The notes beneath the pieces were generated by a model. That model was not told the DNA's origin and did no database searches. It was given only the letters and a program-made list of their open reading frames with translations. Made by a program: the position numbers and the translations under genes. A stretch of 64,000 nt of DNA from a virus: positions 62,001 through 126,000 of IMG/VR virus record IMGVR_UViG_3300005542_000007. The stretch is one strand, 5' to 3'. Positions 39,836-63,541 of this stretch are shown here, piece by piece. Each line of letters opens with the position of its first letter. The stretch's first letter is position 1.

Positions 39836-40008
39836 GCTTAAATGAATATCAAAAGAAACCCACACTTACCGCAGACGGTCTTCCATGGGTACAGCAATGT
39901 TTATATTGTGGCACGTCTGTAAATTTTATTAAGGACCCGAAGAGCAGTTGGCTTAGGGTAGGGGAATTTGTTCGCCATAAAAAATGCGATCCTCCCCCAG
40001 CGAAGTGA
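39832..40008 (+). CDS. Small zinc-finger protein
   Basis: 58 residues, GTG start overlapping the SprT stop (GTGA). CLYCGTSVNFI, then a C-terminal FVRHKKCDPP gives CxxC plus HxxxC, a probable zinc knuckle. It lacks the DNLxYIE tail. Its last codons overlap the start of the next gene by 25 bases. Function unknown. Confidence 0.6.
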   Translation: MSLNEYQKKPTLTADGLPWVQQCLYCGTSVNFIKDPKSSWLRVGEFVRHKKCDPPPAK

Positions 40009-40199
40009 AATACAAAGATTCAGATATTTGTGTTTGTGGCCACCGCTTTGACGACCACGATTGTCACACGGATGGATATTGTTTGGAATGTCTATTCTCC
40101 GATGGTATTTATGGAGATGGCGTTGATGAATGTCAAGGTTTTAAGTTGGATAATTTAAAATACGTTGAAGACAAAGCGAAGAAAAGAAAGTTGCTATGA
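39984..40199 (+). CDS. Zinc-tag family protein 1 (upstream of thyX)
   Basis: 71 residues. CVCGHRFDDHDCHTDGYCLEC gives the CxCGH....H and CxxC knuckles. The tail GFKLDNLKYVEDKAKKRKLL is the conserved DNLxYIExxAKxKxLV ending. The stop overlaps thyX as cTATGA (ATG 40196). One of ten such proteins in the last 24 kb of the window; see findings. Function unknown, probably zinc-binding. Confidence 0.75.
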   Translation: MRSSPSEVKYKDSDICVCGHRFDDHDCHTDGYCLECLFSDGIYGDGVDECQGFKLDNLKYVEDKAKKRKLL

Positions 40200-40843
40200 A
40201 ACCAGTTTTGGATAAAGGATTTGTGGAGTTGGTTGATTCAATGGGGTCGGACCTTTCCATTGTCAGAGCCGCCAGAGTATCTTACGGCAAAACTTCTTCA
40301 GATCCTGAGAAGGATAAGAAGCTGATTAAATTCCTTTTGGCTAACGACCATGGCACCCCCTTTGAGCACGTTGCCCTCACGTTCCATGTAAAAGCTCCAA
40401 TCTTTGTTGTTCGACAGTGGATGAGACACAGGATTGGAAATTCCTTCAACGAGATCAGCGGTCGGTATACAGAGATGAAAGAAGAATTTTATATTCCAAA
40501 GCAGCTTCGTACCCAGGTGGGAAAGAATTACCAGTACGAAGCTTTGATGGATAGTGTGAATTCTATTGAGAAGATTGAAGCTCATTACGAAGACACATTC
40601 AAATTATATAAGGAGCTTCTAGAATTGGGTGTGGCCAAAGAGCAAGCTCGTGCTATCCTTCCCTTGGGGCTCTATACAGAATTTTATTGGACTGTGAATG
40701 CCCGTTCTTTGATGCACTTTATATCTTTGCGTCTTGATCCTCATGCCCAGGAAGAGATTAGAGATTACGCTGTCGCTTTGCTCGAATATTTTAAAGAGGT
40801 TCTGCCTTGGACAGCAGAAGCATTTTTGGAGAAGAATAAGTGA
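40196..40843 (+). CDS. thyX: Flavin-dependent thymidylate synthase ThyX
   Basis: 215 residues. The signature RHRIGNSFNEISGRY (residues 77-91) is present, with FEHVALTFHVKAPIFVVRQW before it and ARAILPLGLYTEF, then SLMHFISLRLDPHAQ after it. ThyX makes dTMP from dUMP with methylene-tetrahydrofolate and FAD/NADPH, a common phage supply route for dTTP. There are eight residues between RHR and the following Ser, one more than the textbook RHRx7S. Translationally coupled to genes on both sides. Confidence 0.9.
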   Translation: MKPVLDKGFVELVDSMGSDLSIVRAARVSYGKTSSDPEKDKKLIKFLLANDHGTPFEHVALTFHVKAPIFVVRQWMRHRIGNSFNEISGRYTEMKEEFYIPKQLRTQVGKNYQYEALMDSVNSIEKIEAHYEDTFKLYKELLELGVAKEQARAILPLGLYTEFYWTVNARSLMHFISLRLDPHAQEEIRDYAVALLEYFKEVLPWTAEAFLEKNK

Positions 40844-41070
40844 TGGAACTTCTGTGCAAATGTGGACACAGAGATACAATGCATTCTACATTAGAAGATG
40901 CACTTAAGTACCGCCAGAATATTGGTAGGTTATGCACTGAATATGCAGACTATCCTAATTACGATGCTCCTTATTTACACGCAACAGAAGAAATTTGTAT
41001 ATGTGATAACTTTATAGCAGATAATTTATTGTCGATTGAACGAGAAGTAAAGAAGAGAAATTTGGTATGA
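40843..41070 (+). CDS. Zinc-tag family protein 2
   Basis: 75 residues from ATG 40843 (TGATG overlap with thyX; a GTG at 40840 is in frame). CKCGHRDTMH opens the knuckle, CICDNF closes it after a long linker, and the tail DNLLSIEREVKKRNLV is a diverged copy of the family ending. The stop overlaps ATG 41067 (gtATGA). Confidence 0.7.
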   Translation: MELLCKCGHRDTMHSTLEDALKYRQNIGRLCTEYADYPNYDAPYLHATEEICICDNFIADNLLSIEREVKKRNLV

Positions 41071-41255
41071 TGTGTTGGCGATGTGGGCATCAAAAGAGAG
41101 GACACGAAGCAGAACCAATAACTGAGTATAAGGAAGTATGTTGGGATTGTTGGTTTGATAAAGATACACTTGAAAAACGTTTAAAAGCTTGGTATAAATT
41201 TGAAGATAACTTGAGTTATATAGAACGCAAAGCTAAGGAAAAGAAACTGATTTGA
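41067..41255 (+). CDS. Zinc-tag family protein 3
   Basis: 62 residues. MCWRCGHQKRGH and VCWDCWF are the zinc pairs; the tail is FEDNLSYIERKAKEKKLI. It is the only family member not followed by a coding overlap: the tRNA cluster begins 9 bases later. Confidence 0.75.
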   Translation: MMCWRCGHQKRGHEAEPITEYKEVCWDCWFDKDTLEKRLKAWYKFEDNLSYIERKAKEKKLI

Positions 41256-41264
41256 GATTCATTC

Positions 41265-41336
41265 GCTCTCATGGTGTAACGGTTAGCACGGTACCCTGTC
41301 AAGGTATTAGCACGAGTTCGATTCTCGTTGGGAGCG
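41265..41336 (+). tRNA. tRNA-Asp (GTC)
   Basis: 72 nt cloverleaf. Acceptor GCTCTCA pairs with TGGGAGC; anticodon loop CTGTCAA gives GTC; T-loop TTCGATT. Discriminator G at 41336. CCA is not encoded. Confidence 0.9.
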
Positions 41337-41350
41337 GAAGAATCTTTAGA

Positions 41351-41425
41351 TGCTCCATAGCACAATGGTAGTGCAATCCCCTGTTAAGGGAAAGGTTCTA
41401 GGTTCGAATCCTAGTGGAGCAGCCA
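41351..41425 (+). tRNA. tRNA-Asn (GTT) with encoded CCA
   Basis: Acceptor TGCTCCA pairs with TGGAGCA; anticodon loop CTGTTAA gives GTT; T-loop TTCGAAT. Discriminator G then CCA at 41423-41425 is present in the DNA, unlike the other two tRNAs. Confidence 0.9.
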
Positions 41426-41443
41426 AGGATTTGGAAGATGATA

Positions 41444-41516
41444 GCCCGGATAGCTCAACTGGTAGAGCAACCCCTTTGTAAGGGGAAGGTTGTAGGTTCG
41501 ATTCCTATTCTGGGCT
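41444..41516 (+). tRNA. tRNA-Thr (TGT)
   Basis: Acceptor GCCCGGA pairs with TCTGGGC (one G-U); anticodon loop TTTGTAA gives TGT, reading ACA, a common codon in these Thr-rich AT-biased tail genes. T-loop TTCGATT. CCA not encoded. Confidence 0.9.
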
Positions 41517-41526
41517 GTGATCTTCT

Positions 41527-42921
41527 ATGATTAAAATCAATATCGAAAACGTTAAGTCGAATCTCGAAGGGGATCTTGACCCAAAAGTAATTTCTGCTAT
41601 ATATAATAAATTGGCAGCAGAGGTTCAGGGTTCTTTTTATGCCCGAAAACAAAACCCCTGGTGGGACGGAAAGAAACATTTCTTCACTAAGGTTGGTAAG
41701 GCTTTTATGACAGGTTTGATTTGGATGGTGCGTGAAACTCTAGACAAACACCACGTTCAGTACGAATATAACGACCTTAGAATAAAGCCCAACCCAAAGA
41801 AAGAATTGCCTTTGCACAACGTTACCCTTCGTGCCTACCAGCAATCCATTGTTGATGAGGCAGTAAAGAAAGAGCGAGGTGTGATTCGTGTTTCAACAGG
41901 TGGCGGTAAGACAACCATCATTGCAGCTTTAGTTGGGAAACTTAATTTCACAACCCTCATCCTGATTCATCGCCAGGAAATTATGGCGCAGATTAAAGAG
42001 ACACTTGAACGCATCCTTCAAATTCCCATTGGAACCGTCGGCGCTGGTACAGTCGATATTCAGCGTGTTACAATTGCTATGGTTCAAAGTGCCCATGAGT
42101 TGAAAGAGTTTCTACCCACTGTTGATGTTTTGATTGGAGATGAAGGACACCATGCTCCTGCTGAAACTTATTGGCAGGTTGCAGAAGCTTGTCCAAATGC
42201 GTATTACCGATATCTTTTTACTGGAAGTGACTGGCGGGAAGATAATATGGATATAATGTTGGATGGATTCGCCGCCAAGAAGTTCGTTGATATCAACGCT
42301 TCCAAGTTAATCGATGATGGTTGGTTGGTTCCACCAACAATTTACTTGTATGATTTTCAGCATGAACGTAAGAACCGCAAAGGGGTTCGTTATCCTAAAA
42401 TTTACAATGAAGAGGTGACGAACAATTTAAAAAGGAACCAGCTTGTTGTGGACCTTGCGATGAGGTCGGTGGAGGCTGGTAAGAGTACATTAATTTTAAT
42501 AAATTACATCGAACATGGGGAGAACCTTTTAACCCTTTTAAAAGCGGTTTACCCAGATATCGAGTTCATCCATGGGAGTACGGAAGTTGGAAAGAGACAG
42601 AAGGTGCTCCAGGAGTTCAAGGAAGGCACCAGGAAGCTCCTTTTAGCGTCAAATATCCTTGGAGAGGGTGTGGACATCCCAAAGCTGGAAGTACTCATTA
42701 CAGCAAGGGCTGAAGCCTCTACAATTGCAGCCTACCAAGCATTGGGAAGAACGCTCAGGCCGTCAGAGGGTAAAACCAAAGCAATTATAATTGATCTTTT
42801 CGATTCTGATTGTAAGTATTTAGAAAGTCATGCTTCAGCGCGTTTAAAAATCTACGCTTCGGAACCCAGGTATAAAATTGTTCCAGTGAGTGATTTGAAT
42901 GGGGTAAAATTCGATGCTTGA
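41527..42921 (+). CDS. UvsW-like SF2 DNA helicase
   Basis: 464 residues. Q-like segment and motif I STGGGKTT (residues 123-130), motif II DEGH (205-208), motif III FTGSDWRED, motif V LASNILGEGVDIPKLEVLI and motif VI YQALGRTLRPSEGK. The N-terminal 95 residues match a UvsW-type accessory domain (KQNPWWDGKKHFF). UvsW remodels branched DNA and recombination forks in T4. It starts 10 bp after tRNA-Thr. Confidence 0.85.
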   Translation: MIKINIENVKSNLEGDLDPKVISAIYNKLAAEVQGSFYARKQNPWWDGKKHFFTKVGKAFMTGLIWMVRETLDKHHVQYEYNDLRIKPNPKKELPLHNVTLRAYQQSIVDEAVKKERGVIRVSTGGGKTTIIAALVGKLNFTTLILIHRQEIMAQIKETLERILQIPIGTVGAGTVDIQRVTIAMVQSAHELKEFLPTVDVLIGDEGHHAPAETYWQVAEACPNAYYRYLFTGSDWREDNMDIMLDGFAAKKFVDINASKLIDDGWLVPPTIYLYDFQHERKNRKGVRYPKIYNEEVTNNLKRNQLVVDLAMRSVEAGKSTLILINYIEHGENLLTLLKAVYPDIEFIHGSTEVGKRQKVLQEFKEGTRKLLLASNILGEGVDIPKLEVLITARAEASTIAAYQALGRTLRPSEGKTKAIIIDLFDSDCKYLESHASARLKIYASEPRYKIVPVSDLNGVKFDA

Positions 42922-43273
42922 TCCAAAAGATGTGGAGAGTGTAGTAAATAAATCTGATATGGTTTTGGATGTTTTAAATAAGCGTAGCAAAGTGGTTTTT
43001 AAAGTTCCTCTGGTAAGAATCAGAGTAGCTTTTTTTGGGTACCAATATGTTTGGGGAGAACTGAATCGAGCTAAACTGACATCCGAACTTTTGGATTTGG
43101 GATTCGACAATCTTACCCTTACTTTAATTATTGAAGGTATTATTCATTTAAAAAGAAAAGTAACACAATGGAAGGAAAGTCCCAAACGTATAACCGATCC
43201 TCTTGAATTGGCAAGAATGGAAACACAAGTAAAAAAGCGTGTTCGTTTTAATACCGCTAGAGGTAAATTTTAA
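42914..43273 (+). CDS. Hypothetical protein
   Basis: 119 residues, overlapping the helicase end by 8 bases. Basic, with helix-rich front (DVLNKRSKVVFKVPLVRIRV) and a second half LKRKVTQWKESPKRITDPL. No family recognised. Coupled to the zinc-tag gene that follows (TAATG). Confidence 0.5.
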   Translation: MLDPKDVESVVNKSDMVLDVLNKRSKVVFKVPLVRIRVAFFGYQYVWGELNRAKLTSELLDLGFDNLTLTLIIEGIIHLKRKVTQWKESPKRITDPLELARMETQVKKRVRFNTARGKF

Positions 43274-43458
43274 TGGTTGAGTATTGCACCTGTGGGCATA
43301 CGAAAGAATGCCACGCAATACTTCATGGTCCTCACGGTATTAAGAATTTGGCGTTGTGTTTAAACTGTGTAAATAAAAATGAGATCGCCTCCCATTCTTT
43401 TAAACTTGACAATCTTAAATTAATCGAAGACTTAGCCAAAGAGAAAGGATTAGTATGA
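43273..43458 (+). CDS. Zinc-tag family protein 4 (upstream of phosphoesterase)
   Basis: 61 residues. CTCGHTKECH and CLNCVN form the knuckles; tail SFKLDNLKLIEDLAKEKGLV. The last 18 residues are nearly identical to those of the 59484 protein. The stop overlaps ATG 43455 as gtATGA with AAAGGA as RBS in its own C-terminal codons. Confidence 0.75.
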   Translation: MVEYCTCGHTKECHAILHGPHGIKNLALCLNCVNKNEIASHSFKLDNLKLIEDLAKEKGLV

Positions 43459-44123
43459 TAAAAATAGTGGCTATTTCCGATACCCATCTTTCGCACAACC
43501 AATTAGAAATTCCTGAGTGCGACCTTTTGATCCATTCAGGAGATTTTTCATTTGTAGGAAAAATGGTTGATGTGCTAGACGTGAACCAATGGTTTGGGAA
43601 GTTGAAAGCAAGTGGTAAGGTAAAAGAGATTGTAGCAATCGCTGGCAATCATGATTGGATAGGACAGACAAACCCCAGTTGGACAAAAGAAGCTTTTACC
43701 AATTGTATTTACTTGGATGAAGAACCTTGTGAAGTGTTTGGGTTCAAAGTGTTTGGGTCGGCATGGAGTCCAGAATTTAATAATTGGGCGTTCAATGCAA
43801 AACGAGGAAAAGAGATAGCTCGACACTGGAGTAAGATTCCCGATGATACGGAAATCCTCGTAACGCATGGACCGCCTATGGGAATCTTGGATATTAACAC
43901 AGAAGAGATTTACAGCAAACCTTTGGGCCCGGAACATTTGGGATGTGAGGAGCTTAGGAAGCGAGTGAAGAAATTGAAAGAGTTAAAGCTGCATGTTTTC
44001 GGCCACATACATTCTTCCAATGGAATGGATACGGTCGATGGTGTTCAGTTTGTTAATGCCTCAGTCTTAAACGAATCCTACGAAGTAGTTTACCCACCTA
44101 GAGTAATTCACCTCGAAAAATAG
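43455..44123 (+). CDS. Calcineurin-like metallophosphoesterase
   Basis: 222 residues with every family block: SDTHLSH (D9, H11), HSGDFSF (D30), GNHDW (65-68), VTHGPPMGILD and FGHIHSSNG. Two metals at this site hydrolyse phosphomono- or diesters. Closest layout is the MPPED/239FB branch by the THGPPxGILD block. Substrate (nucleotide, DNA or RNA) not predictable. Confidence 0.85.
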   Translation: MIKIVAISDTHLSHNQLEIPECDLLIHSGDFSFVGKMVDVLDVNQWFGKLKASGKVKEIVAIAGNHDWIGQTNPSWTKEAFTNCIYLDEEPCEVFGFKVFGSAWSPEFNNWAFNAKRGKEIARHWSKIPDDTEILVTHGPPMGILDINTEEIYSKPLGPEHLGCEELRKRVKKLKELKLHVFGHIHSSNGMDTVDGVQFVNASVLNESYEVVYPPRVIHLEK

Positions 44124-44137
44124 CATCAAATTACCTC

Positions 44138-44166
44138 TTGACAAAATACCCTTTTCCTGCTAAACT
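44138..44166 (+). promoter_or_regulatory. Sigma70-like promoter; predicted leaderless start at 44172
   Basis: TTGACA 44138-44143, 17-bp spacer, TAAACT 44161-44166. The GTG start is five bases further, so transcription should begin at the start codon. Confidence 0.7.
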
Positions 44167-44171
44167 AAAGC

Positions 44172-44333
44172 GTGGAAGAAAAGCTCTGCGAATTCTGCAA
44201 GCATAAAGCAAGTGATCACATCCTGGCGAATGCTGGTGCTTGTGGTGATGCAGAATGTTGCGGAAGTGAATACGAATTTTGCTATGAATGTGGAGAACGT
44301 TGCAGTGGCTTTGATTTAAAGTGGAGGTATTGA
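44172..44333 (+). CDS. Cys-rich small protein, divergent zinc-tag relative
   Basis: 53 residues, GTG start. CEFCKHKASDH resembles the family CxCGHxxxxH knuckle; eight Cys in all (CGDAECC, CYECGERC). It ends SGFDLKWRY: the GFxLD part is kept but the NLxYIE...LV tail is missing, perhaps a truncated member. No RBS precedes the GTG, which abuts a strong promoter. Confidence 0.6.
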   Translation: MEEKLCEFCKHKASDHILANAGACGDAECCGSEYEFCYECGERCSGFDLKWRY

Positions 44334-44335
44334 AA

Positions 44336-44509: not shown

Positions 44510-44510
44510 C

Positions 44511-45828: not shown

Positions 45829-45831
45829 AGA

Positions 45832-46155: not shown

Positions 46156-46163
46156 AATAACCC

Positions 46164-49239: not shown

Positions 49240-49240
49240 A

Positions 49241-49775: not shown

Positions 49776-50180
49776 ATGGCTTCAAAAGAATATATGCGTA
49801 ATTGGTACTTAAAAAATAGGGAAAGAAATTTGGAGAAGGCCAAAATTTATCGTCAATCTTATCCAGGGGCTCAACGAATGAGAGAAAAACGTTTACGTGG
49901 GCAGACATTTATAAATGAAGCAAAAAATAAACCTTGTATGGATTGTGGTGTTCGTTATGCTTCTTGGATAATGCAGTTTGACCACAGAGATCCAACACAA
50001 AAGAGATTTACAATTTCATCTTCTACTTCCCGTTCCTTTGTAGATTTACAAATTGAAATGGATAAATGCGATGTTGTATGTGCTAATTGTCATGCAGAAA
50101 GAACGCATAAATTAGGTAAATTGTTTAGACCAGGAAGACCAGTCGCGGAACGGAAATATACTAAAAGGAGTCCAAAGTGA
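49776..50180 (+). CDS. HNH homing endonuclease
   Basis: 134 residues. CMDCGVRYASWIMQFDHRDP and CANCHAERTHKLG are the Cys pairs and HNH core. The basic N-terminus (YMRNWYLKNRERNLEKA) resembles the repeat region of the 23891 endonuclease. It sits just before clpP-like and is probably a mobile free-standing nuclease. RBS AAAGGATAATTAA. ATGA-type overlap (GTGA) with the next gene. Confidence 0.75.
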   Translation: MASKEYMRNWYLKNRERNLEKAKIYRQSYPGAQRMREKRLRGQTFINEAKNKPCMDCGVRYASWIMQFDHRDPTQKRFTISSSTSRSFVDLQIEMDKCDVVCANCHAERTHKLGKLFRPGRPVAERKYTKRSPK

Positions 50181-50803
50181 ATATTATCCCCACTGTGGTA
50201 GAAAAAATGACCGGAGCGGGGTCAATGGTTTCCTACGACCTCCTTTCCCGTTTGATGCAAGATAGAATTTTATTCGTAGGTGGCAATCACGGAGCCATAA
50301 GTTTGGACGATGCTAATATCCTAATTTCGCAGCTTCTTTATTTGGATTCGATTGACCCAGGTAAGAAAATTGAAATGTACATCAATTCTCCAGGTGGGGA
50401 GGTTTCAGCGGGCCTTGCTATTCTGGATACAATGAATCACATCCAAAGTCCTATCACGACAATCTGTTTAGGAATGGCAATGTCTTTTGGGGCTGTTCTA
50501 TTGAGTGCTGGGGAACCGGGAAAACGTTTTGCTCTTCCAAATGCCCGTATCATGATTCACCAACCATTGATTTCTGGAGGTGGGATATCGGGTCAGGCGA
50601 CTGACATTGAAATTGAAGCAAAGGAAATGACTCATTGCAAAACATCCCTTACAAAAATCCTCGCAGCCAACTGCAATCAGAAATACGAGAAGGTTTTGAA
50701 GGATTGCGAACGCAATTTTTATATGTCAGCAGAGGAAGCAAAAGAGTATGGGTTGATTGATAACGTGATTGTTCCGCACAGGAAATTGGATAAACACGTT
50801 TAG
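50177..50803 (+). CDS. ClpP-like protease with Asn in place of catalytic Asp
   Basis: 208 residues, GTG start. Clearly ClpP: IPTVVEKM, YINSPGGEVSAGLAI, GMAMSFGAVLLSAG with nucleophile S103, ARIMIHQPL with H128, and a C-terminal YMSAEEAKEYGLIDNV. The residue aligned with the Asp of bacterial ClpP (DRD-F-L) is N180 (CERNFYMSAEEA). Listeria ClpP1 also has Asn there and needs a partner for full activity. It could mix with host ClpP and retune it. No Clp ATPase gene in this window. Confidence 0.85.
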   Translation: MNIIPTVVEKMTGAGSMVSYDLLSRLMQDRILFVGGNHGAISLDDANILISQLLYLDSIDPGKKIEMYINSPGGEVSAGLAILDTMNHIQSPITTICLGMAMSFGAVLLSAGEPGKRFALPNARIMIHQPLISGGGISGQATDIEIEAKEMTHCKTSLTKILAANCNQKYEKVLKDCERNFYMSAEEAKEYGLIDNVIVPHRKLDKHV

Positions 50804-50806: not shown

Positions 50807-50968
50807 ATGAGAAACAAGAAAAAAGCAAAACGGATAAAGAAAGCACCTAGGAAAAAGTTGGCGGTTAAACCAGCGGTAGATTGTGTCTGCCCTGAAAATG
50901 ATTGGGAAACTTCTGATGAACAAAGCTTCTTTGGAAGTGGCGACTTCCTTTACGATGATCTTCTTTAA
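50807..50968 (+). CDS. Small basic/acidic bipartite protein
   Basis: 53 residues, Lys/Arg-rich start (NKKKAKRIKKAPRKK), acidic end (DWETSDEQSFFGSGDFLYDD). TAATG overlap with the next zinc-tag gene. Bipartite charge suggests nucleic-acid contact plus a protein-binding tail; function unknown. Confidence 0.5.
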   Translation: MRNKKKAKRIKKAPRKKLAVKPAVDCVCPENDWETSDEQSFFGSGDFLYDDLL

Positions 50969-51156
50969 TGAAAACGTTGCGTAAACCAGCCATACCTTGC
51001 ATTTGTGGACACAGCCGGACATCTCATAAAGGTTGGGGACATTGGAAAGTATGTATGGACCCGCTTATTGATTTTGAAGAGTGTGAATGCGATAAATATG
51101 TTCCAGACAATCTCTCTTACATAGAGAAGCTTGCAAAAAAGAAAAAGCTAGTATGA
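50968..51156 (+). CDS. Zinc-tag family protein 5 (upstream of PRPP-synthetase-like gene)
   Basis: 62 residues. CICGHSRTSHKGWGHWKVC plus FEECECDKY; tail VPDNLSYIEKLAKKKKLV. Stop overlaps ATG 51153 as gtATGA. Confidence 0.75.
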   Translation: MKTLRKPAIPCICGHSRTSHKGWGHWKVCMDPLIDFEECECDKYVPDNLSYIEKLAKKKKLV

Positions 51157-51929
51157 TAAAATTAAACGGCAGAACAATTACTCCGACCGTATTTCCCGAC
51201 CACTCTTCCCAGGTGTGGAAGGTGCCGGAAGAGTGTTTCCATGTACCAGGGAATGTCATTACTTGGGAATTTGAGAACGAGGCTGAATTTTTACACGTCG
51301 CACAACTCAAGGACCTTATCCACAGCGTGGTGGGATATGGGGAAGTGATTTTGGACCTTCCCTACCTTCCTTACGCAAGACAGGATAAAGAAGTTTCAAA
51401 TAAATCGACCTTTGCACTGCATACGTTTGCAAGGTTGTTAAATTCATTGGAATTTACGAAGGTTGTGGTTTTTGACGCACACAACTACTCTTTGTCGTAT
51501 GAGTTGATTAATTGTCTCGACATTGTTATCCCGGACATCGAACCTCTTGCCAAAGAATTAAATGCTACGGTTGTATACCCAGATTCTGGTGCCGGGACAC
51601 GCTACCAAGATTCTTCAGTTGGGGACGTTATCATTTGTGAGAAAGAAAGAGATCCCTTGACAGGTGAAATCAAAGGTCTTTTAATCAACGATAACATTGA
51701 AGCCGGAACTTATTTGATTGCGGATGACATTTGCGACGGTGGCAGGACGTTCATTGAAGTGGCTAAGAAGCTTTACAAATTCGGAGCTACAGAAGTGCAT
51801 TTGTATGTGTCACATGGGATTTTTTCAAAAGGGCTGCAAGTATTACGAGATGCTGGAATCAAACGAATCTTTACACGAAAAGGAGAAGTACATGAGCAAC
51901 GATTATTTGCCAGCGACACTACTGTGTGA
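51153..51929 (+). CDS. PRPP-synthetase-like enzyme (candidate Adps)
   Basis: 258 residues, shorter than the roughly 310 of bacterial Prs. Core motifs: YLPYARQDKEVSNKSTFAL (ATP/ribose-phosphate loop), VVVFDAHNYSL and the PRT loop LIADDICDGGRTF (residues 188-200). The next gene, overlapping by 38 bases, is NAMPT-like. That pairing is the architecture of the NARP1 pathway, where the Prs-like Adps turns ADP-ribose into ADPR-pyrophosphate. A conventional PRPP supply for NAMPT is the alternative. Confidence 0.75.
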   Translation: MIKLNGRTITPTVFPDHSSQVWKVPEECFHVPGNVITWEFENEAEFLHVAQLKDLIHSVVGYGEVILDLPYLPYARQDKEVSNKSTFALHTFARLLNSLEFTKVVVFDAHNYSLSYELINCLDIVIPDIEPLAKELNATVVYPDSGAGTRYQDSSVGDVIICEKERDPLTGEIKGLLINDNIEAGTYLIADDICDGGRTFIEVAKKLYKFGATEVHLYVSHGIFSKGLQVLRDAGIKRIFTRKGEVHEQRLFASDTTV

Positions 51930-53403
51930 TTTCTACAAGGTCAGCCACCGCGCCCAGTATCCAAAAGGGACGGAAGTGGTGTATTCAACGTGGACGCCAA
52001 GAACATCTCGTTTACTCGACGTTCAGGAAGTGGTTCACTTTGGTGCCCAGGCATTCATCAAAGAATTCCTGATTGAATTCTTCAACAAGAATTTCTTTGA
52101 GCGAGAGCAGGAAGATGTTGTGAACGAATACAAACGAGTGATTCAGTATGCTTTGGGTGATTCTGCTCCCGCCTTTGAGCACATTATTGAATTGCACAAT
52201 TTGGGTTACTTACCGCTTAAAATTAAATCGTTGCCAGAAGGCTCCGTGGTTCCTCTTAGGGTTCCTACATTAACAGTTCAAAATACCCATCCTAAGTTTT
52301 TCTGGCTCACCAACTATATTGAAACTCTCCTTTCTGCCGAGATGTGGCAAGCTTCCACTTCCGCCACAATTGCCAGAGAGTATCGAAGAGTGTTTGAAAA
52401 GTACGCTTTGGAAACGGCTGGCGGTATTGATTTCGTTCAGTTTCAAGGCCACGACTTCTCTATGCGTGGTATGGGAACAGTAGCATCTGCCATAAAGAGC
52501 GGCATGGGACATCTGCTTTCTTTTGCAGGAACGGATACAATTCCAGCAATTCTGGGCTTGGAGCATTACTACAACGCCAACATTGAAAAGGAATTGGTTG
52601 GTACTTCAATCCCTGCTACAGAGCATTCTGTGATGTGTGCTAATGGTCGTGATGAATTCGCCGCTTATAAACGAATTATTACAGAGGTATACCCCAAGGG
52701 ATTTGTATCTATTGTGTCGGATACTTGGGATTTGTGGGAAGTGTTGGATAAAGTAGTTCGTCCTTTGAAGGACACAATCCTTGCTCGTGAAGGCAAAGTA
52801 GTTATTCGTCCAGATAGCGGAGACCCAGTTAAGATTGTTACGGGCGACCCAGAAGGAAAGACAGAGGCAGCACGTAAAGGCGTAATTGAAATCCTGTGGG
52901 ATATTTTTGGCGGCACGTATAACATTGTATGGGACGGTGAGAAAAATGTTGGATACAGGCAACTCGACCCACACATTGGTTGTATTTATGGGGATGCTAT
53001 TACTCGAACTCGTGCTCAGGATATTTGTGAAAGGCTAAAGGCAAAAGGCTTTGCCTCGACCAATATGGTATACGGCATTGGCTCTTATACATACCAGTAT
53101 AATACTCGTGATACTTTTGGGTATGCTATGAAGAGTACCCTTTGTGTTATTAACGGGCAAGAAGTTCAAATCTTCAAAGATCCTGTTACAGATAACGGAG
53201 TAAAAAAGTCACAGAAAGGTGGAGTAAGAGTATTCGAACATAATGGAGAATTAGTATATTTGGATCAATTTTCCTTGGCCGAATCTAATGAAAACACACT
53301 GCTAAGGGATGTATTCGTCGATGGTAAACTATTGGTGGATGAGAAGTTTTCAGATATCAAGGCAAGAGTTCTTCAATCGTTGGAACAAAAAGCTTCTGTA
53401 TGA
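51892..53403 (+). CDS. NAMPT-like nicotinamide transferase (candidate Namat)
   Basis: 503 residues from ATG 51892 (AAGGAG RBS). LLCDFYKVSHRAQYPKGTEV, then MWQASTSATIAREYR, SIPATEHSVMCA with the catalytic-type His, and VIRPDSGDPVKIV are the NAMPT/NadV family blocks. NAMPT joins nicotinamide to PRPP. NARP1 Namat joins nicotinamide to ADPR-pyrophosphate and makes NAD+ directly. Start codon lies within the preceding gene, so the two are translated together. Confidence 0.85.
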   Translation: MSNDYLPATLLCDFYKVSHRAQYPKGTEVVYSTWTPRTSRLLDVQEVVHFGAQAFIKEFLIEFFNKNFFEREQEDVVNEYKRVIQYALGDSAPAFEHIIELHNLGYLPLKIKSLPEGSVVPLRVPTLTVQNTHPKFFWLTNYIETLLSAEMWQASTSATIAREYRRVFEKYALETAGGIDFVQFQGHDFSMRGMGTVASAIKSGMGHLLSFAGTDTIPAILGLEHYYNANIEKELVGTSIPATEHSVMCANGRDEFAAYKRIITEVYPKGFVSIVSDTWDLWEVLDKVVRPLKDTILAREGKVVIRPDSGDPVKIVTGDPEGKTEAARKGVIEILWDIFGGTYNIVWDGEKNVGYRQLDPHIGCIYGDAITRTRAQDICERLKAKGFASTNMVYGIGSYTYQYNTRDTFGYAMKSTLCVINGQEVQIFKDPVTDNGVKKSQKGGVRVFEHNGELVYLDQFSLAESNENTLLRDVFVDGKLLVDEKFSDIKARVLQSLEQKASV

Positions 53404-55568: not shown

Positions 55569-56741
55569 TTGCGATCCCTCTACCTTTTAGCAATTCTCAT
55601 TTTCTTTAACCAGGGCATTGGCTCTCTTGCTGCCCAACCTCTCTACTACTTCCTTCGGGAAACACTTGGAATTGGCATTCCCACAATTATGATGCTTGGG
55701 GCACTTGCCAATCTTCCCTGGCTGATTAAACCCGTATGGGGATTCCTCAGTGATTCATTCAGCATTTTTGGATATCGTAGGAAGAGTTACATTATTTTGT
55801 TTTCTCTTTTAGGGACGGTTTCTTTTCTTCTTATCGGTCTTTCACCGTTTATTTCCCTTCCCGTTCTTGTCGGTCTGATGATTTTAGGGTCGATTGGAGA
55901 AGCGGGCGGGAATGTAGCCGTAAATGGTATGGGGGTAGAAGAGGGAAACAAGGATGGAACGACAGGTAAGTTTCAGAGTGTTTGTTGGGGAGCATTGGGT
56001 GTGGGTTCCGTTCTTACTGGAGTTACGGGCGGTTACATAGCGGAAAAAGCCTCATACCACCTTGCTTTCGTTATATTGGCTCTTTTCCCTATCCTGATTG
56101 CTGTAATGGCCCTCCGGCATCCAGAGCAGAAAGCAGAAGCTTCACATAAAGCTGTAGGACCCATAATTAAAGACTTTCTAATAAAATTAAAAAATAAGCA
56201 GATTTTCCTTTGCAGCTTGTTTTTATTTTTCCTTTGGTTCAGCCCCTCTTTTGGAACACCCCTTTTGGACAGGATGCGAACAGTGCTCCACATGTCAAAA
56301 GTATGGATTGGCTGGCTTGACACGATTGGGTCTGCTTGCGGAATTGTCGGAGCTATGGTATACTTTAAAGTGAGTAAGAGTATAAACATGAAGCGTTGGT
56401 TGTACTACGGAACGGTCTTAAGTGCTTTGGCTACGTTTGCGTATTTGTACCTGACACCCACCACTTTGTTTTGGTACACAATAGTGTTTGGGGTAGCTTC
56501 ACAGTTCATTCATTTGTTGATGCTGAATCTTATGGCGATGACTTGTCCAGAGGGAACGGAAGCAACCACGTATGCTTTGCTGTGTTCCCTTGTTAATTGT
56601 GCATCTTTCTTTTCTAATTTGGTTGGAGCTAAATGCTTCGCTCTATTTGGGTATAACGGGTTGATTATTATTTCAGGAGTGACAACGCTCATGTGTTTGG
56701 GATTCATTCCGTATCTTGAGGTAAACAAAAATGTCTTGTAA
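55569..56741 (+). CDS. BT1-family MFS transporter (folate/pteridine-like)
   Basis: 390 residues with 11-12 hydrophobic helices. The start is TTG 55569. The N-terminal helix pair with QPLYYFLRETLGIG, then PWLIKPVWGFLSDSF and GYRRKSY, is the BT1 (folate/biopterin) signature. Later helices include FLWFSPSFGTPLLD and TYALLCSLVNCASFF. Function in phage: unknown; supply of a folate-like cofactor for ThyX is possible. Phage-encoded transporters of this family are very unusual. Confidence 0.7.
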   Translation: MRSLYLLAILIFFNQGIGSLAAQPLYYFLRETLGIGIPTIMMLGALANLPWLIKPVWGFLSDSFSIFGYRRKSYIILFSLLGTVSFLLIGLSPFISLPVLVGLMILGSIGEAGGNVAVNGMGVEEGNKDGTTGKFQSVCWGALGVGSVLTGVTGGYIAEKASYHLAFVILALFPILIAVMALRHPEQKAEASHKAVGPIIKDFLIKLKNKQIFLCSLFLFFLWFSPSFGTPLLDRMRTVLHMSKVWIGWLDTIGSACGIVGAMVYFKVSKSINMKRWLYYGTVLSALATFAYLYLTPTTLFWYTIVFGVASQFIHLLMLNLMAMTCPEGTEATTYALLCSLVNCASFFSNLVGAKCFALFGYNGLIIISGVTTLMCLGFIPYLEVNKNVL

Positions 56742-57034: not shown

Positions 57035-58415
57035 AGAACTCGAATATAATTTTCTGAAGCACGTTCTTACCGATCCCAAATGTGTCCTGAAGGTGCAGGA
57101 ACGTGGAGTTGACGAGAGCTTCTTCGATATACCGACAGTCTCTAAGCTCTTTGGAATCACCATCCGGTATTTCCAAGCTTACAGCGTACTTCCAACCTCT
57201 GCCGATGTTGAGTTGGTCCTTTCTTCCAGCAAATATACAGCAAACTTAGGCGATGATTTTAAAAAACAAATCGCGGTCCTCTTCTCCGAAGTGTCAATCC
57301 TTTCCAATCCTCCAAATTTTGATCTTCTCCTCGACGAGTTGATTCAGTACCACAAAACTAATTTGTTCCAGCAATCCTTGTTTGCTGCTACTGAAGCTCT
57401 CACCAACAACAGTACGGATAAAGCGATTGAAGCGGTTAAGAAGTCGCTTGCCTCCATCGATAAGATTTTTGCTTCCAATTATGATTTGAACGGCAGCATC
57501 GAAGATAATGCGAAACCCCTTTGGGACCAGTTTTTGGATGCAGAGCAACATCCAGAAAAGTACAAGGGAATCAACGTAGGGTTTGATGGATTTGACAAAC
57601 TCACTGGTGGATTGGTTGGTGGGACAGTTACGTTAATTATCGGCGGATGGAAAAGTGCAAAATCCGTTCTCTCAATGAATATGGCGCACAACGTTGCGAC
57701 AAGTGATTTTGCAACTAAGAGGGTTGGCAAGCGAGTGTTGTACCATGTTAACGAGGGGCGGTTCGAGTTGAACCAAGCTCGTCTTGCCTCCTGCGCCACT
57801 GGAATCAATTATACCAGATTGAGCAGAGCTTTGAGGGGCCGCGTTATCTTTACCCAGGCAGAAAGAGATTTGTACGAAAAGTATTTAAAGGGAGATGAAT
57901 TTAAAGAGTTGCGTCACAACCTCATTATCGATTCAGCACCTCCTATCGTTAGTTCCGCTCGTTATGTTGGAGCAAAGATTAAAGAACACAAACCAGAGTT
58001 TGTTATCATCGACTACTTGGGGCTTTTAGGAACGGACCAGAGAGTGAAAGACGATAATGAGAAATTGGGTAAAGTGTCATCTGAAATTGTAGGGTTGGCA
58101 ATTGAACACAACGTACCTATTATCCTGATTGCTCACGTCAATAGGAAAGCGAAACAAGCAGCCGATAAAAATAACGAGGATTATGACAGCGAAGATATGG
58201 GATTGAGTATCGAACCGATTAAGAACGTGGACGCTGTTGTATCCTGGAGGATTGAAGACCCGGAACAATTTAAGCAAACACACAAGGGCATTGGAACGTT
58301 GGCAATTAGAGATGCCAGGAACGTAGAGACAGGAACGTGTCAGCTTTTGGTTGACACAAATTCGATGAGTATAAAGAACATCATTTATGGTGGGATGGGT
58401 GGGCAGCAGCCGTGA
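57024..58415 (+). CDS. DnaB-like replicative helicase
   Basis: 463 residues. N-terminal helical domain about 1-170, then RecA-like core: Walker A GGWKSAKS (207-214), Walker B VIIDYLGLLG, and ILIAHVNRKAK with later DAVVSWRIEDPEQ. This is the replicative helicase fold of DnaB and T4 gp41. The usual G before K(S/T) in Walker A is Ala here. The primase zinc domain is encoded 2 kb downstream. Confidence 0.85.
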   Translation: MQNKELEYNFLKHVLTDPKCVLKVQERGVDESFFDIPTVSKLFGITIRYFQAYSVLPTSADVELVLSSSKYTANLGDDFKKQIAVLFSEVSILSNPPNFDLLLDELIQYHKTNLFQQSLFAATEALTNNSTDKAIEAVKKSLASIDKIFASNYDLNGSIEDNAKPLWDQFLDAEQHPEKYKGINVGFDGFDKLTGGLVGGTVTLIIGGWKSAKSVLSMNMAHNVATSDFATKRVGKRVLYHVNEGRFELNQARLASCATGINYTRLSRALRGRVIFTQAERDLYEKYLKGDEFKELRHNLIIDSAPPIVSSARYVGAKIKEHKPEFVIIDYLGLLGTDQRVKDDNEKLGKVSSEIVGLAIEHNVPIILIAHVNRKAKQAADKNNEDYDSEDMGLSIEPIKNVDAVVSWRIEDPEQFKQTHKGIGTLAIRDARNVETGTCQLLVDTNSMSIKNIIYGGMGGQQP

Positions 58416-58573
58416 GTGATAAAGACAGACCCTGCAAAAACTGTGGAAGACCTGGATATTACCCCGTACATGACATTGTAGGTAGATGCCCAAATCGCAA
58501 TTTTTCATATTACGCACCAAAAGACAATCTCGATTACGTCGAGTGGCTTGCAGAGAAGAGAGGATTGGTATGA
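58412..58573 (+). CDS. Zinc-tag family protein 6
   Basis: 53 residues, GTG start in the DnaB stop (GTGA). CKNCGRPGYYPVH plus RCPN is a variant knuckle; tail PKDNLDYVEWLAEKRGLV. Overlaps ATG 58570 as gtATGA. Clear family member by its tail even though the front differs. Confidence 0.7.
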   Translation: MSDKDRPCKNCGRPGYYPVHDIVGRCPNRNFSYYAPKDNLDYVEWLAEKRGLV

Positions 58574-58686: not shown

Positions 58687-58690
58687 TAGA

Positions 58691-59482: not shown

Positions 59483-59483
59483 A

Positions 59484-59681
59484 ATGGAAGATTGGAAACT
59501 TCCTTGCACTTGTAAGCACAATAAAAATGCCCACCGAGGATTTCGTAGTATATATGGAGAATTTCATCGTACAGGTTGTAGACACAAATATTCTGATTTT
59601 TCAAGTTGCATTTGTTTTGGATTCAAACTCGACAACCTCAAACTAATAGAAGACTTAGCGAAAGAAAAAGGTTTGGTATGA
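59484..59681 (+). CDS. Zinc-tag family protein 7
   Basis: 65 residues from ATG 59484. CTCKHNKNAH, then GCRHKYSDFSSCICF as knuckles; tail GFKLDNLKLIEDLAKEKGLV is almost the same as in the 43273 protein. Overlaps the next start as gtATGA. Confidence 0.75.
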   Translation: MEDWKLPCTCKHNKNAHRGFRSIYGEFHRTGCRHKYSDFSSCICFGFKLDNLKLIEDLAKEKGLV

Positions 59682-59842
59682 CCGATTATTGCATGTGTGG
59701 GCACATGCAGTACAAACATCAAAAAGCTGAACGTTTTAACACAAATGGATTGTTTTATTGTTTTGATTGCGACTGTATGAAGTACAAACTCGACAATCTA
59801 AGATTTATTGAAGACGAAGCGAAAGAACGAGGGCTTGTATGA
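59678..59842 (+). CDS. Zinc-tag family protein 8 (upstream of primase)
   Basis: 54 residues. CMCGHMQYKH and CFDCDC knuckles; tail YKLDNLRFIEDEAKERGLV. Two family genes in tandem here. Stop overlaps ATG 59839 as gtATGA. Confidence 0.75.
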   Translation: MTDYCMCGHMQYKHQKAERFNTNGLFYCFDCDCMKYKLDNLRFIEDEAKERGLV

Positions 59843-60357
59843 AAACCTGCCTTGAAGTAATTGAAGAATATGGAATCGAACTTAAAGATTTGGGAAAAGA
59901 CTTAGCTCGTGGATACTGTAAAATCCATAATGACGTTGCTAGTGGAAAGCCTCAGTTCACCTACTATAAAAATAACGATTCTTGGTTCTGCTTCCGTTGT
60001 GGGATAGGTGGAGATGCAATACGACTTGTTGCCGAGATGGAACACATTTCGTATGCCGAAGCCAAGAAACGATTAGTAGGAACAGAAGCCGAACAATTAG
60101 AAGAGTTGAGGGAGACGCTTGATAGTTTGGATGTTGACATCAGCCAAAGCTACAACCTCCAGCTTAATTTAACTCTCCGTCCTAAGTTCCGTGATCTTCT
60201 TTATAAATACCCAGAGCATCAGCAAGATATTTTAAACGCGATGAAAGCTCTCGATGAAGAGTTGAAGAATAAAATTAATTTTACTAAGATGGGCGAATTA
60301 TTTGAACGATTTAAATTATTCAGTGAGCAGATAGTTGCAGAATCAAGCAGGGTATGA
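59839..60357 (+). CDS. Primase zinc-binding (CHC2-like) domain protein
   Basis: 172 residues. CKIHND...WFCFRCGIGGDAIRLV is the CHC2 zinc domain that recognises template in DnaG-type primases. The TOPRIM polymerase domain is absent, so the catalytic part must be elsewhere or is supplied by another protein. The C-terminal 80 residues are helical and may contact the helicase. Confidence 0.75.
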   Translation: MKTCLEVIEEYGIELKDLGKDLARGYCKIHNDVASGKPQFTYYKNNDSWFCFRCGIGGDAIRLVAEMEHISYAEAKKRLVGTEAEQLEELRETLDSLDVDISQSYNLQLNLTLRPKFRDLLYKYPEHQQDILNAMKALDEELKNKINFTKMGELFERFKLFSEQIVAESSRV

Positions 60358-60363
60358 TATAGT
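60335..60363 (+). promoter_or_regulatory. Sigma70-like promoter; predicted leaderless start at 60370
   Basis: TTGCAG 60335-60340, 17-bp spacer, TATAGT 60358-60363. Six bases to ATG 60370. Lies in the end of the primase gene. Confidence 0.55.
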
Positions 60364-60369
60364 TGGTGT

Positions 60370-60573
60370 ATGGAAGAATTAGGTAGAAGAGATTGGGAAC
60401 TTCCTTGTATTTGTGGGCATATAAATAAAGAGCATCGACATATGAACAGGGAAGCAGATCGATGGAAATATACAACTAAAGTTTGTTGGAGCAAGTATTG
60501 TATTTGCTTTGAATTCAAACTCGATAATCTCGCATATGTCGAGCAGGTAGCCAGAGCTAGAGGATTGGTATGA
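60370..60573 (+). CDS. Zinc-tag family protein 9
   Basis: 67 residues. CICGHINKEHRH and CWSKYCICF; tail FKLDNLAYVEQVARARGLV. Overlaps ATG 60570 as gtATGA. No RBS in front of its own ATG, which abuts a promoter. Confidence 0.75.
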   Translation: MEELGRRDWELPCICGHINKEHRHMNREADRWKYTTKVCWSKYCICFEFKLDNLAYVEQVARARGLV

Positions 60574-60767
60574 AAGAATTTAAGATTCAAAAACGCTACA
60601 ATAAAAGCGTGAAGCTTTCTGACGGCTCCTACCACAGTTTTGGAACAGAGCTTGAAACGACTGTGAATGTATCCAGTGGTGAAGAGCTTTTAGCTGAAAG
60701 CAATAAGCTGTTTGGACAATGCAAGTTTCTTGTTGAAGAAGATATTAAAAATACATTGGGACAATAA
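60570..60767 (+). CDS. Hypothetical protein
   Basis: 65 residues. KSVKLSDGSYHSFGTELETT is beta-rich; a helical Cys-containing tail follows. Small replication-region protein; not recognised. Confidence 0.5.
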   Translation: MKEFKIQKRYNKSVKLSDGSYHSFGTELETTVNVSSGEELLAESNKLFGQCKFLVEEDIKNTLGQ

Positions 60768-61067
60768 ATGTCGAACCTTAAAAAGTGGACACAGAAAGAC
60801 GGTACGAAGATTCGAATCAAAGATATGACGGATAAGCATTTGGTTAACGCCGCGAAGATGCTTTTAAGAATGGCAGAAGCAGAAAAGAATGAAACATTGG
60901 GTTACTATCCATCTTTTAATCCAGATTCAATGGCAGCATATTACTCAGAACAATCATGGGATAATTTAAATGAGATGGATATCCAAGAGTATGCCGAAAT
61001 GGAATACCCAATATTTAACGATTTGCTATGGGAAGTGTATAGGAGAAAATTGGAGAATAAAATATGA
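60768..61067 (+). CDS. Hypothetical helical protein
   Basis: 99 residues starting one base after the previous stop. KHLVNAAKMLLRMAEAEKNE and aromatic-rich EYAEMEYPIFNDLLWEVYR. ATGA overlap with the next gene. Unknown. Confidence 0.5.
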   Translation: MSNLKKWTQKDGTKIRIKDMTDKHLVNAAKMLLRMAEAEKNETLGYYPSFNPDSMAAYYSEQSWDNLNEMDIQEYAEMEYPIFNDLLWEVYRRKLENKI

Positions 61068-61594
61068 AACTTTTAACTGAAGCTGAAATGCAGGAACGTC
61101 TTGGAGAAGTGGCTACGTCCAGGGTTGCCCTTGACCCAGACCCAACAGTTAATGGCGTACTTTCACTCAATAAGAAGCTGGCTGAAATTCAATTGTTTAA
61201 AGACCGTTTAAGCTATTTGATTACGGAAGCGTTGCACAATTCAAATACAGCCGAGGTGTTATTTGAAGAGCTTAAGGGCGAACACGACCGCGCCTTGGAA
61301 GTACTTCTCGCAACTGATTCGACCGTGCAAGCTCAAAAATCTGCCGAGATGCGAAACGCCACCGCGAAGCAAAAGATCGCTGAACAGGTTCTCAGACTTC
61401 ATCACGCTGAAATTGATTTGCTTAAAGCTCAGGGATATTTGAAAGTTCTCCAGTCAATTCATTTGAATCTGGAAAGTTGCAACTCTAATTTGTCAAGGCA
61501 AATTACCGTGATCCAGCTTGCGACTGGAATGGGCGAAATACAAAGATCTGCAAACGGAATACAACCAGCAGGACAGATAACAAAAACGTATTAA
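61064..61594 (+). CDS. Coiled-coil protein
   Basis: 176 residues, mostly long helices (NKKLAEIQLFKDRLSYLITE, SAEMRNATAKQKIAEQVLR). No catalytic motif. In this position between primase and recombination genes it may be an assembly factor, but no family is recognised. Confidence 0.5.
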   Translation: MKLLTEAEMQERLGEVATSRVALDPDPTVNGVLSLNKKLAEIQLFKDRLSYLITEALHNSNTAEVLFEELKGEHDRALEVLLATDSTVQAQKSAEMRNATAKQKIAEQVLRLHHAEIDLLKAQGYLKVLQSIHLNLESCNSNLSRQITVIQLATGMGEIQRSANGIQPAGQITKTY

Positions 61595-61595
61595 G

Positions 61596-61787
61596 ATGCC
61601 AAGGCTAAAAGGTAGCAAAGATAAGAAACCGAGAAAGAGTAGAGGTAAAGATAAGTTGTGCTCAAAAGGACACGATATATCTGTTGTAGGGCGTAACTCA
61701 AGTGGGCATTGTAATGAATGCCATAAGGAATATTACCAGAAACGTTGGGAATTTATTAAGCAGAATTTTAATGAAAAGCAACCTTAA
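61596..61787 (+). CDS. Small Lys-rich zinc-knuckle protein
   Basis: 63 residues. Basic start (KGSKDKKPRKSRGKDK), then CSKGHDIS and HCNECHKEYYQKRW. This resembles the short HNH-associated or DNA-binding Cys/His units found next to phage endonucleases; an endonuclease gene does follow. Its last codons overlap the promoter element. Confidence 0.55.
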   Translation: MPRLKGSKDKKPRKSRGKDKLCSKGHDISVVGRNSSGHCNECHKEYYQKRWEFIKQNFNEKQP

Positions 61788-61831
61788 AAGTATAATAAAA
61801 TGTGGTATTATTAGGACGTACTATACGTCCC
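61782..61831 (+). promoter_or_regulatory. Conserved phage promoter element, second copy
   Basis: Identical in 32 of 34 positions to 14421-14454 (CCTTAAAA, TATAATAAA, TGTGGTATTATTAGG at 61782-61815). It is followed by a perfect 7-bp inverted repeat GGACGTA-CTA-TACGTCC (61814-61830). It drives the endonuclease gene and probably the SSB-like gene after it. Confidence 0.7.
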
Positions 61832-61858
61832 ACTATTATAATTTTAAGGAGAACTAAA

Positions 61859-62701
61859 ATGGGTATGTTATTAAATATGGTTGGACAAAGATACGTTAGA
61901 TTGGCAGTTAAAGCTTTCAGTCATTTGGATGATAATGGCAATTCATACTGGCTTTGCAGGTGTAATTGTGGAACAGAAAAGATTATTCAGCGTAGTAATT
62001 TGTTGGTTGGTAACGCCAAATCCTGTGGGTGTTTAGGCCGAGAAATCCATTCCAAACTTCACAAAGTCCATGGAATGTCTCACACGCCAGAACACAAGGC
62101 TTGGGGTTCTATGATTGAACGTTGTTATGATGTAAATAATCCACGGTATAAGGATTACGGTGGAAGAGGAATTACAATTTGTAAAAAGTGGTTGGAGCCG
62201 CAAGGAATTGGATTTATGAACTTTTACGAAGACATTGGGCCTAAGCCGTCAAAAAGACATAGTTTGGATAGGAAAGATAACGAGGGTAACTACGAACCTG
62301 GGAATGTTAAATGGTCAACTCCAAAACAACAAGCTAGAAATACACGAATGTCTACACAAACCAAAAATAAAGCGGAGCATAAGTATCAGAGAAGTCGTTT
62401 AATGTCGTTTTTAAATAAGTTGGTAAGTGAAAAAGTGTTTCCTCAATTGTTTGAAGAAAACTTTGGAATTTCGGTAAGCGGGTTCAAACAATACATCGAA
62501 TCCAAATTTCAACCAGGAATGACTTGGAAGAATCATGGTAGAGGTGTTGGAAAATGGCAGTTCGATCACATCATCGGTTGTAACAATTTTGATTTGAGCA
62601 AAGAAGAAGATCGTAAGACTTGTTTCAATTATACAAATTTCCAGCCCTTGTGGTGGGAAGAACACAAACATAAAAATAAGAAATTACTTAAAATACAATA
62701 A
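61859..62701 (+). CDS. Compound HNH homing endonuclease
   Basis: 280 residues from ATG 61859 with AAGGAGAACTAAA as RBS. An N-terminal zinc region (CRCNCGTEK, then SCGCL) is followed by a first HNH-like block (YGGRGITICKKW, LDRKDNEGNYEPGNVKWS). A C-terminal HNH follows (KQYIESKFQPGMTW, FDHIIGCNNFDLSKEE, YTNFQPLWWEEHK). The C-terminal block matches the 23891 endonuclease. It lies between the promoter element and the SSB-like gene, so it likely inserted downstream of that promoter. Confidence 0.8.
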   Translation: MGMLLNMVGQRYVRLAVKAFSHLDDNGNSYWLCRCNCGTEKIIQRSNLLVGNAKSCGCLGREIHSKLHKVHGMSHTPEHKAWGSMIERCYDVNNPRYKDYGGRGITICKKWLEPQGIGFMNFYEDIGPKPSKRHSLDRKDNEGNYEPGNVKWSTPKQQARNTRMSTQTKNKAEHKYQRSRLMSFLNKLVSEKVFPQLFEENFGISVSGFKQYIESKFQPGMTWKNHGRGVGKWQFDHIIGCNNFDLSKEEDRKTCFNYTNFQPLWWEEHKHKNKKLLKIQ

Positions 62702-62719
62702 CTAAGGAGAACAACAGTC

Positions 62720-63370
62720 ATGCTTTCAACAATTACAAAAGGTGAGTATAAGAACGATCCAATTCCCGACAATGTTTATTTGGCGAAGCTTTTAAACGTT
62801 AAGGAGAAGCCAGCCCCGGAAGCGCACCCAGATTGGTACCCTTCTTTAAGCTGGACATTCGAAATCCTTCAAGACCCATTCAAGAAACGCCGAGCGTGGG
62901 GCAAAACGCCGACCTCATGGATTGCCGGAAAGAAACTTGACAATTGGTTGGTTACATGTGGAATTAACGTGGCCAAAGGTACAAGCCTTAAGATTGAAGA
63001 TCTGAAAGACATTTACGTGAAGATCTTGGTTAAAAGCAAACCATACGATGATCCACAAACGAAAGAGAAGAAAACGTTCCAATCAGTAATTGAGCTTCTT
63101 CCTTTGGATAGTTTGGATCAGATTAAGATCAGAGAGTTGGCAATGACAGCACCTCCTTCCGCTGTAGGAATGCAGCCAGTTGCTTCACAGCAACCTACTA
63201 TTCCTGTGTCCCAGACCACAACAGGATTTGTGGTTCCAATGACAACCTCTTCCCCCGTATCTAATGTTGTTCCTGGGCCAGTAAGTGCTCCGGCTACTTT
63301 TTCACCACAACCGACATTTACACCAGCGCCCCAGGTTACAGGTACGCCGAGTAGAACGATACCGTTCTAA
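62720..63370 (+). CDS. Candidate single-stranded DNA-binding protein
   Basis: 216 residues. The N-terminal half has a compact core (DNVYLAKLLNVKEKPAP, WYPSLSWTFEILQDPFKKR, then YVKILVKSKPYDDP) compatible with an OB fold. The C-terminal 80 residues are disordered, Pro/Gln/Thr/Val-rich, and end SRTIPF. SSB proteins typically end in DDDIPF; here IPF is kept but the acidic residues are lost. Location before recA and after a strong promoter supports an SSB-like role. The assignment is inference. Confidence 0.5.
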   Translation: MLSTITKGEYKNDPIPDNVYLAKLLNVKEKPAPEAHPDWYPSLSWTFEILQDPFKKRRAWGKTPTSWIAGKKLDNWLVTCGINVAKGTSLKIEDLKDIYVKILVKSKPYDDPQTKEKKTFQSVIELLPLDSLDQIKIRELAMTAPPSAVGMQPVASQQPTIPVSQTTTGFVVPMTTSSPVSNVVPGPVSAPATFSPQPTFTPAPQVTGTPSRTIPF

Positions 63371-63373
63371 CGA

Positions 63374-63541
63374 ATGGAAGAGAAGTGCATTTGTAAGCAT
63401 TTAAGAAGCAGCCATTGGTGGCATTACAAAGAAGACGGTAGAACGAAAAAGCCTTGCTTATCTTGGTGTCCTTGCAAAGGATTTGCTTTAGATAACTTGG
63501 AATATATTGAACGATTAGCCAAGGAGCATAATTTAATATGA
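63374..63541 (+). CDS. Zinc-tag family protein 10 (upstream of recA)
   Basis: 55 residues. [13 protein letters not shown] and CLSWCPC knuckles; tail [19 protein letters not shown]. Ends ATATGA, overlapping ATG 63538 of recA; AAGGAG lies within its own last codons. Confidence 0.75.

Follow-up and report, generated by a model that had tools for sequence, protein, structure and literature searches.

Phage T4 targets various internal proteins to the head by a shared capsid-targeting sequence, which is N-terminal, cleaved, and carried by virion proteins. Poxvirus ankyrin-repeat/F-box (PRANC) proteins pair divergent N-terminal target-binding heads with a shared short C-terminal truncated F-box that docks to one host complex (PMC9414399). 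A short adaptor-borne peptide, the SspB XB peptide, suffices to recruit ClpX by way of ClpX's own zinc-binding domain, and does so also as a fusion with other peptides (PMC12373786). Here we describe a 17-residue portable C-terminal motif, (x)DNLx[YFLH][IV]ExxAxx[KR], hereafter the tail, found in a 64,000-base window (positions 62001–126000) of a 141,877-base phage record in IMG/VR (IMGVR_UViG_3300005542_000007, hereafter G000). A reading of the window from its sequence alone had proposed that ten small zinc-finger proteins form a new family and that their tails share a binding partner. All ten genes were found on the + strand, encoding proteins of 53–75 residues with a Cys/His knuckle and a DNL..(I/V)E tail, and the recurrence of the tail is far beyond chance. 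The ten proteins are thus real, but the family as proposed is too narrow: there are about 34 copies in the record (~54 with an upstream extension), about one carrier in three is non-zinc, several heads are predicted SH3-like barrels, and zinc heads without a tail exist. A shared partner for diversified heads is the interpretation with the best support, strengthened by the many unrelated heads that carry one conserved tail. We favor, with moderate confidence, a tail that would serve as a helix docking to a single shared partner, while the fast-evolving heads would bind targets.

The analysis drew on G000, a 151-kb relative (G001), and a 117-kb contig that overlaps G000 (G002). Motif matches in G002 track those of G000, always shifted by 37,006 bases, and the terminases are 100% identical; G002 therefore appears to be the same phage, its first 37 kb extending the genome upstream. 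At the DNA level, a degenerate pattern encoding DNLxx[IV]E matched G000 33 times in forward and once in reverse orientation (reversed-pattern control, 0), G001 36 times, and G002 40 times. At a score of at least 12, with assignments below about 15 less certain, an iterated hidden Markov model (HMM) of the 17-residue tail identified 95 tailed open reading frames (ORFs), every one of them on the + strand. G000 contributes 34 of these, the G002 extension 20, and G001 41. Combining G000 with the 37-kb extension gives ~54 tail copies in what is probably one phage genome. Near-invariant positions across the 95 tails were D1 (89), N2 (93), L3 (94), I/V6 (91), E7 (93), and A10 (79). Because N2 and E7 are polar, this conservation exceeds that of a plain amphipathic helix. 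The consensus is the same in G000/G002 and G001, which suggests that the tail partner is probably conserved between the two phages. When crude gene calls were clustered de novo by their last 28 residues, the pattern was recovered: the largest clusters held 43/323 and 38/266 calls in these phages, compared with 3/402 in Tunturi_5, 3/224 in Myrna, and ≤3 in shuffles. Another C-terminal cluster (n = 10) was also seen, together with a matching ending in three HNH-like ORFs (L009:16620-17276, L010:2241-2921, and L013:4499-5146), which end alike in YGKIL(E/K)K.GLK and are probably dispersed homing-endonuclease-type genes.

The heads that precede the tail fall into many unrelated groups by BLAST clustering. 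According to a loose regular expression (CxCGHxxxxH and variants), ~63 of the 95 heads are Cys/His-rich and ~32 are not; most heads carry a putative metal-binding pattern of CxCGHxxxxH and further Cys residues. Several non-zinc heads start with a predicted SH3-like barrel, and a fold search with the SH3-like model ranked the barrel folds PWWP, chromo, Tudor, and KOW highest, none of them significantly. The non-zinc head of L009:13306-13743 matches phrog_28969 (E 1.9e-10) and is homologous to Seuratvirus hypothetical proteins (e.g. CPT_Seurat72, about 35% identity), aligning full length with these ~121-residue proteins, which end where the tail begins. Since the Seuratvirus homologs, unlike the L009 protein, have no tail, the comparison indicates that the tail was gained or lost as a module and that head and tail are separable. 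Zinc heads bear a weak likeness to small CxCGHxxxxH proteins of actinobacteriophages (e.g. a Gordonia phage hypothetical protein; tblastn E 1–3, residues 7–50), a match that is not significant and excludes the tail.

We compared tails and heads in reciprocal-best ortholog pairs between the two phages (G000 side vs G001). Residue identity was 328/441 (74%) in tails vs 859/1666 (52%) in heads (p about 3e-18), whereas the same codon was used for unchanged residues at similar rates (162/327 vs 412/815, p = 0.79). Raised protein identity at equal synonymous codon identity points to selection on the tail peptide. For one pair, the window protein at 60370..60573 and its G001 ortholog, the tail is identical at 17/17 residues and at only 6/17 codons. 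These figures argue against a tail that is a DNA or RNA module rather than a peptide, in which a Shine-Dalgarno (SD) sequence and an ATGA start for the next gene would have spread by recombination. The tail ends do have features of such a module: ATGA or GTGA overlaps a possible next start in 51/62 exactly terminal tails vs 67/240 crude non-tail gene calls (p about 7e-15), the last tail codons favor GTA, ATA, and GGA, and the tail Asp is encoded by GAC in 53/89 cases vs 74/320 in heads (p = 3e-10; G000, G001, and G002). However, SD-like sequences showed no enrichment (34/51 terminal tails vs 36/67 other overlapping genes, p = 0.19), and the DNLxxIE core lies about 25–50 nt upstream of the next start, beyond SD range. 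Conservation at the DNA level, including synonymous sites, was not found for a translation-coupling or SD module, although the terminal codons do show a coupling-related bias. An SD or RNA element was thus rejected for the core, on peptide-level conservation and SD range, and kept for the terminal GLV-ATGA. For the core, the nucleic-acid module is already largely refuted, and we regard it as very improbable.

AlphaFold2 predicted the tail as a short C-terminal helix in two members, one zinc-type and the other SH3-like. In the zinc-type protein encoded at 50968, the helix spans residues 48–58 within the tail (local predicted local distance difference test (pLDDT) 69–80); in the SH3-like member it spans residues 104–121 (local pLDDT about 81–90, whole model 70, predicted template modeling score (pTM) 0.67). 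Such a helix, with a conserved hydrophobic face formed by L3, I/V6, and A10, could also bind its own kind, homotypic tail contacts assembling different heads into mixed complexes. Yet it is short for a stable canonical coiled coil, and N2 and E7 are atypical zipper positions, which makes self-association decidedly unlikely.

The tail ends exactly at the stop codon in 62/95 ORFs, 1–5 residues before it in 15, and 6–22 residues before it in 16, while two copies are internal; 77/95 tails thus lie within five residues of the stop. Both internal copies (DNLTY(I/V)E in L009:3519-4004 and in G001 12715-13311) are 65–66 residues from the end, at an equal place in both phages, and this ORF pair is possibly a carrier or binder of a different design. 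Placement at the C-terminus, with frequent basic-then-hydrophobic ends (KKKKLV, KERKLI, and KRGLV), would suit a degradation or half-life tag: a C-terminal degron by which a Clp-type protease, of the host or with the phage's own ClpP, would remove the carriers after their need has passed. The phage itself encodes a full-length ClpP-like protease (window 50177–50803; PF00574, E 5e-69; 97% identical in G001). This gene lies outside the virion gene region, and the Ser-His-Asp motif residues of its product look present by eye. Conservation of the tail, however, peaks in the internal DNLxxIE core and not in the final residues, at least six extra residues follow the motif in 18/95 copies, and the invariant N2 and E7 are not obviously needed for a degron. 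We therefore consider a degradation tag unlikely.

Carriers in G000 sit at 4–22 kb and 102–134 kb, plus a lone one at 60 kb, the single exception in a terminase/capsid/sheath/baseplate region (22–101 kb) that otherwise has none. This arrangement bears on whether the tail is a sorting signal that gathers its carriers at one place, such as a replication site, a compartment, or the capsid interior for injection. One peptide across many unrelated proteins fits such signals, the T4 capsid-targeting sequence among them; the carriers' location outside the virion gene region and the C-terminal position of the tail do not, and sorting seems an improbable function.

A docking motif best explains the combination of a short helix in which Asp, Asn, Leu, and Glu hardly vary, unrelated fast-evolving heads, and conservation at the protein level. 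Under the docking reading, this lineage would have attached the tail to about 50 small non-virion proteins, all of which would plug into one common partner, either phage-encoded or a protein conserved among hosts. The heads, mostly small Cys/His folds predicted to bind zinc, plus SH3-like barrels and others, would be the variable part and most likely bind differing targets (host factors, defense proteins, or nucleic acid), and the tail would carry each head-bound target to the shared hub. We infer the binding of a partner by the tail, the commonness of that partner, and the role of the heads as target binders from the patterns described above. Several points weigh against docking. Tail–tail association or control of protein turnover is a conceivable alternative, and RNA polymerase, the ribosome, and Clp as tail partners are guesses at this stage. 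The 16 tails with 6–22 trailing residues and the two internal copies depart from a strictly terminal element, the AlphaFold2 model of the zinc-type 50968 protein is of low confidence (pLDDT 64, pTM 0.37), and the GAC bias at the tail Asp is unexplained at a purely protein level. More tentatively, the set might form a plug-in adaptor system in which some fifty interchangeable, fast-evolving heads and one docking helix serve a single hub, e.g. a Clp protease, a scaffold made by the phage, or the machinery of transcription. In its logic, such a system would parallel the poxvirus ANK/F-box adaptors on the prokaryotic side. Phage ClpP acting with a Clp ATPase of the host is no more than one candidate for this hub, and the presence of ClpP is no evidence for a Clp role. 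By conservative de novo clustering, at least 12–14% of the phage genes end in the same transferable peptide, and we found no described phage system like this. Should all tails dock to one partner, one pull-down with a synthetic peptide would expose the hub, and the ~fifty heads would be a ready library of target binders, possibly against host defenses. The motif also offers, in one stroke, a role that can be tested for dozens of small phage proteins that otherwise defy classification.

Within the window, the ten tailed proteins are all zinc-type. The first (39984..40199, CVCGHRFDDH...C..C) ends in LDNLKYVEDKAKKRKLL (40146–40196), its stop overlapping a thyX-like start at 40196. The gene at 40840..41070, with tail ADNLLSIEREVKKRNLV (41017–41067), overlaps the start of the next gene, and that at 41067..41255, with tail EDNLSYIERKAKEKKLI (41202–41252), has three tRNAs downstream and a G001 ortholog (112487–112696) that retains the tail. 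The same tail, LDNLKLIEDLAKEKGLV, occurs in 43273..43458 (43405–43455), which overlaps a phosphoesterase-like start at 43455, and in 59484..59681 (59628–59678). At 44172..44333 (+ strand), a zinc-type head keeps the knuckle and lacks the tail, as had been noted from the sequence, and its G001 counterpart (116950–117132) is likewise without one. Further along, 50968..51156, with tail PDNLSYIEKLAKKKKLV (51103–51153), overlaps a Prs-like start at 51153; 58412..58573, with tail KDNLDYVEWLAEKRGLV (58520–58570), has a GTG start that overlaps the end of a helicase-like gene; and 59678..59842, with tail LDNLRFIEDEAKERGLV (59789–59839), overlaps a gene with a DnaG-type CHC2 zinc ribbon (59839–60357). 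The last two are 60370..60573, with tail LDNLAYVEQVARARGLV (60520–60570), and 63374..63541, whose 17-residue tail (63488–63538) runs up to an overlapping recA-like start at 63538.

Other genes of these phages also stood out. A ~200-residue module (TYAVLGDTAVTNTG...GTVTVP) is repeated in several virion-region proteins (window 14528–17458, 28394–30808, and 30819–32873) and may resemble the ice-binding-like DUF3494. Window 55569–56741 encodes a BT1/MFS-type membrane transporter (PF03092, E 2e-41; 89% identical in G001). A uracil-DNA glycosylase is joined to a family A DNA polymerase in L013:13164-15743 (PF03167 + PF01612 + PF00476), and a 1479-aa protein (L010:7352-11791) contains, away from its ends, a domain of the low-molecular-weight phosphotyrosine phosphatase type (PF01451, E 2e-25). 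The Prs-like gene is followed by a NAMPT-like gene (window 51153–53403), apparently arranged as in NARP1 (Adps/Namat), a phage NAD+ reconstitution pathway (PMC12774641).

In the collections searched, the tail was found in one lineage only, comprising G000/G002, G001, and two fragments of 28.5 kb (3300050821_012041) and 5.7 kb (3300006028_000134). Beyond it, a 45-base degenerate tail pattern in IMG/VR gave only isolated matches, none of them C-terminal tails; in 84,980 bacterial and archaeal species genomes it gave 11 isolated hits, none of which makes a convincing tail at the C-terminus (in PHP-like proteins, for instance, the match is internal). A shorter degenerate pattern had the same outcome; diverged tails would escape these scans, which use exact degenerate patterns. 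The tail was not found in named phages with a related major capsid protein or terminase (Bacillus phage G, Tunturi_5, Myrna, and E3; no A4 profile match), and the degenerate pattern in Bacillus phage G (4 + 1) was comparable to the control (4 + 2). The sequence-only reading had named two outcomes that would count against it, loss of the tail in related phages and placement in a characterized zinc-finger family, and neither was borne out. The tail is conserved in G001, and the ten window proteins had no Pfam, PHROG, or NCBIfam zinc-finger or zinc-ribbon match (curated cut-off or E ≤ 1e-3). Scans of 54 members gave single-member hits no better than E 1e-3, and the best hit in a PDB profile search had E 0.028. 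Membership in a known zinc-finger family was rejected after these searches, and none of the Pfam, PHROG, or NCBIfam families accounts for the tail either. Literature on shared C-terminal motifs in phage early proteins yielded nothing relevant, most subscription journals not being covered. By this lack of match in the libraries and literature searched, the tail system is new in kind, a standing that could fall with an undiscovered paper.

Compared with the systems introduced above, the phage proteins resemble the PRANC set in being lineage-specific and in joining divergent heads to a single common C-terminal element. They would work like that set and are not members of it: they have no ankyrin repeats or F-box (no such Pfam hit), belong to a bacterial virus, and carry heads of unrelated folds, so that the likeness is one of logic alone. 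The T4 capsid-targeting sequence is likewise one short peptide common to different phage proteins and routes them to one place; in contrast, the tail described here is C-terminal, and its carriers are encoded away from the region of virion genes. With SspB XB/ClpXP the likeness is that the phage encodes ClpP, whereas the DNLxxIE core is unlike the XB peptide and no sequence match was seen, though no comparison aimed at one was made. By analogy, then, the poxvirus ANK/F-box set comes nearest in logic among viruses and the XB-type ClpX tether comes nearest among bacterial mechanisms; the tail system belongs to neither.

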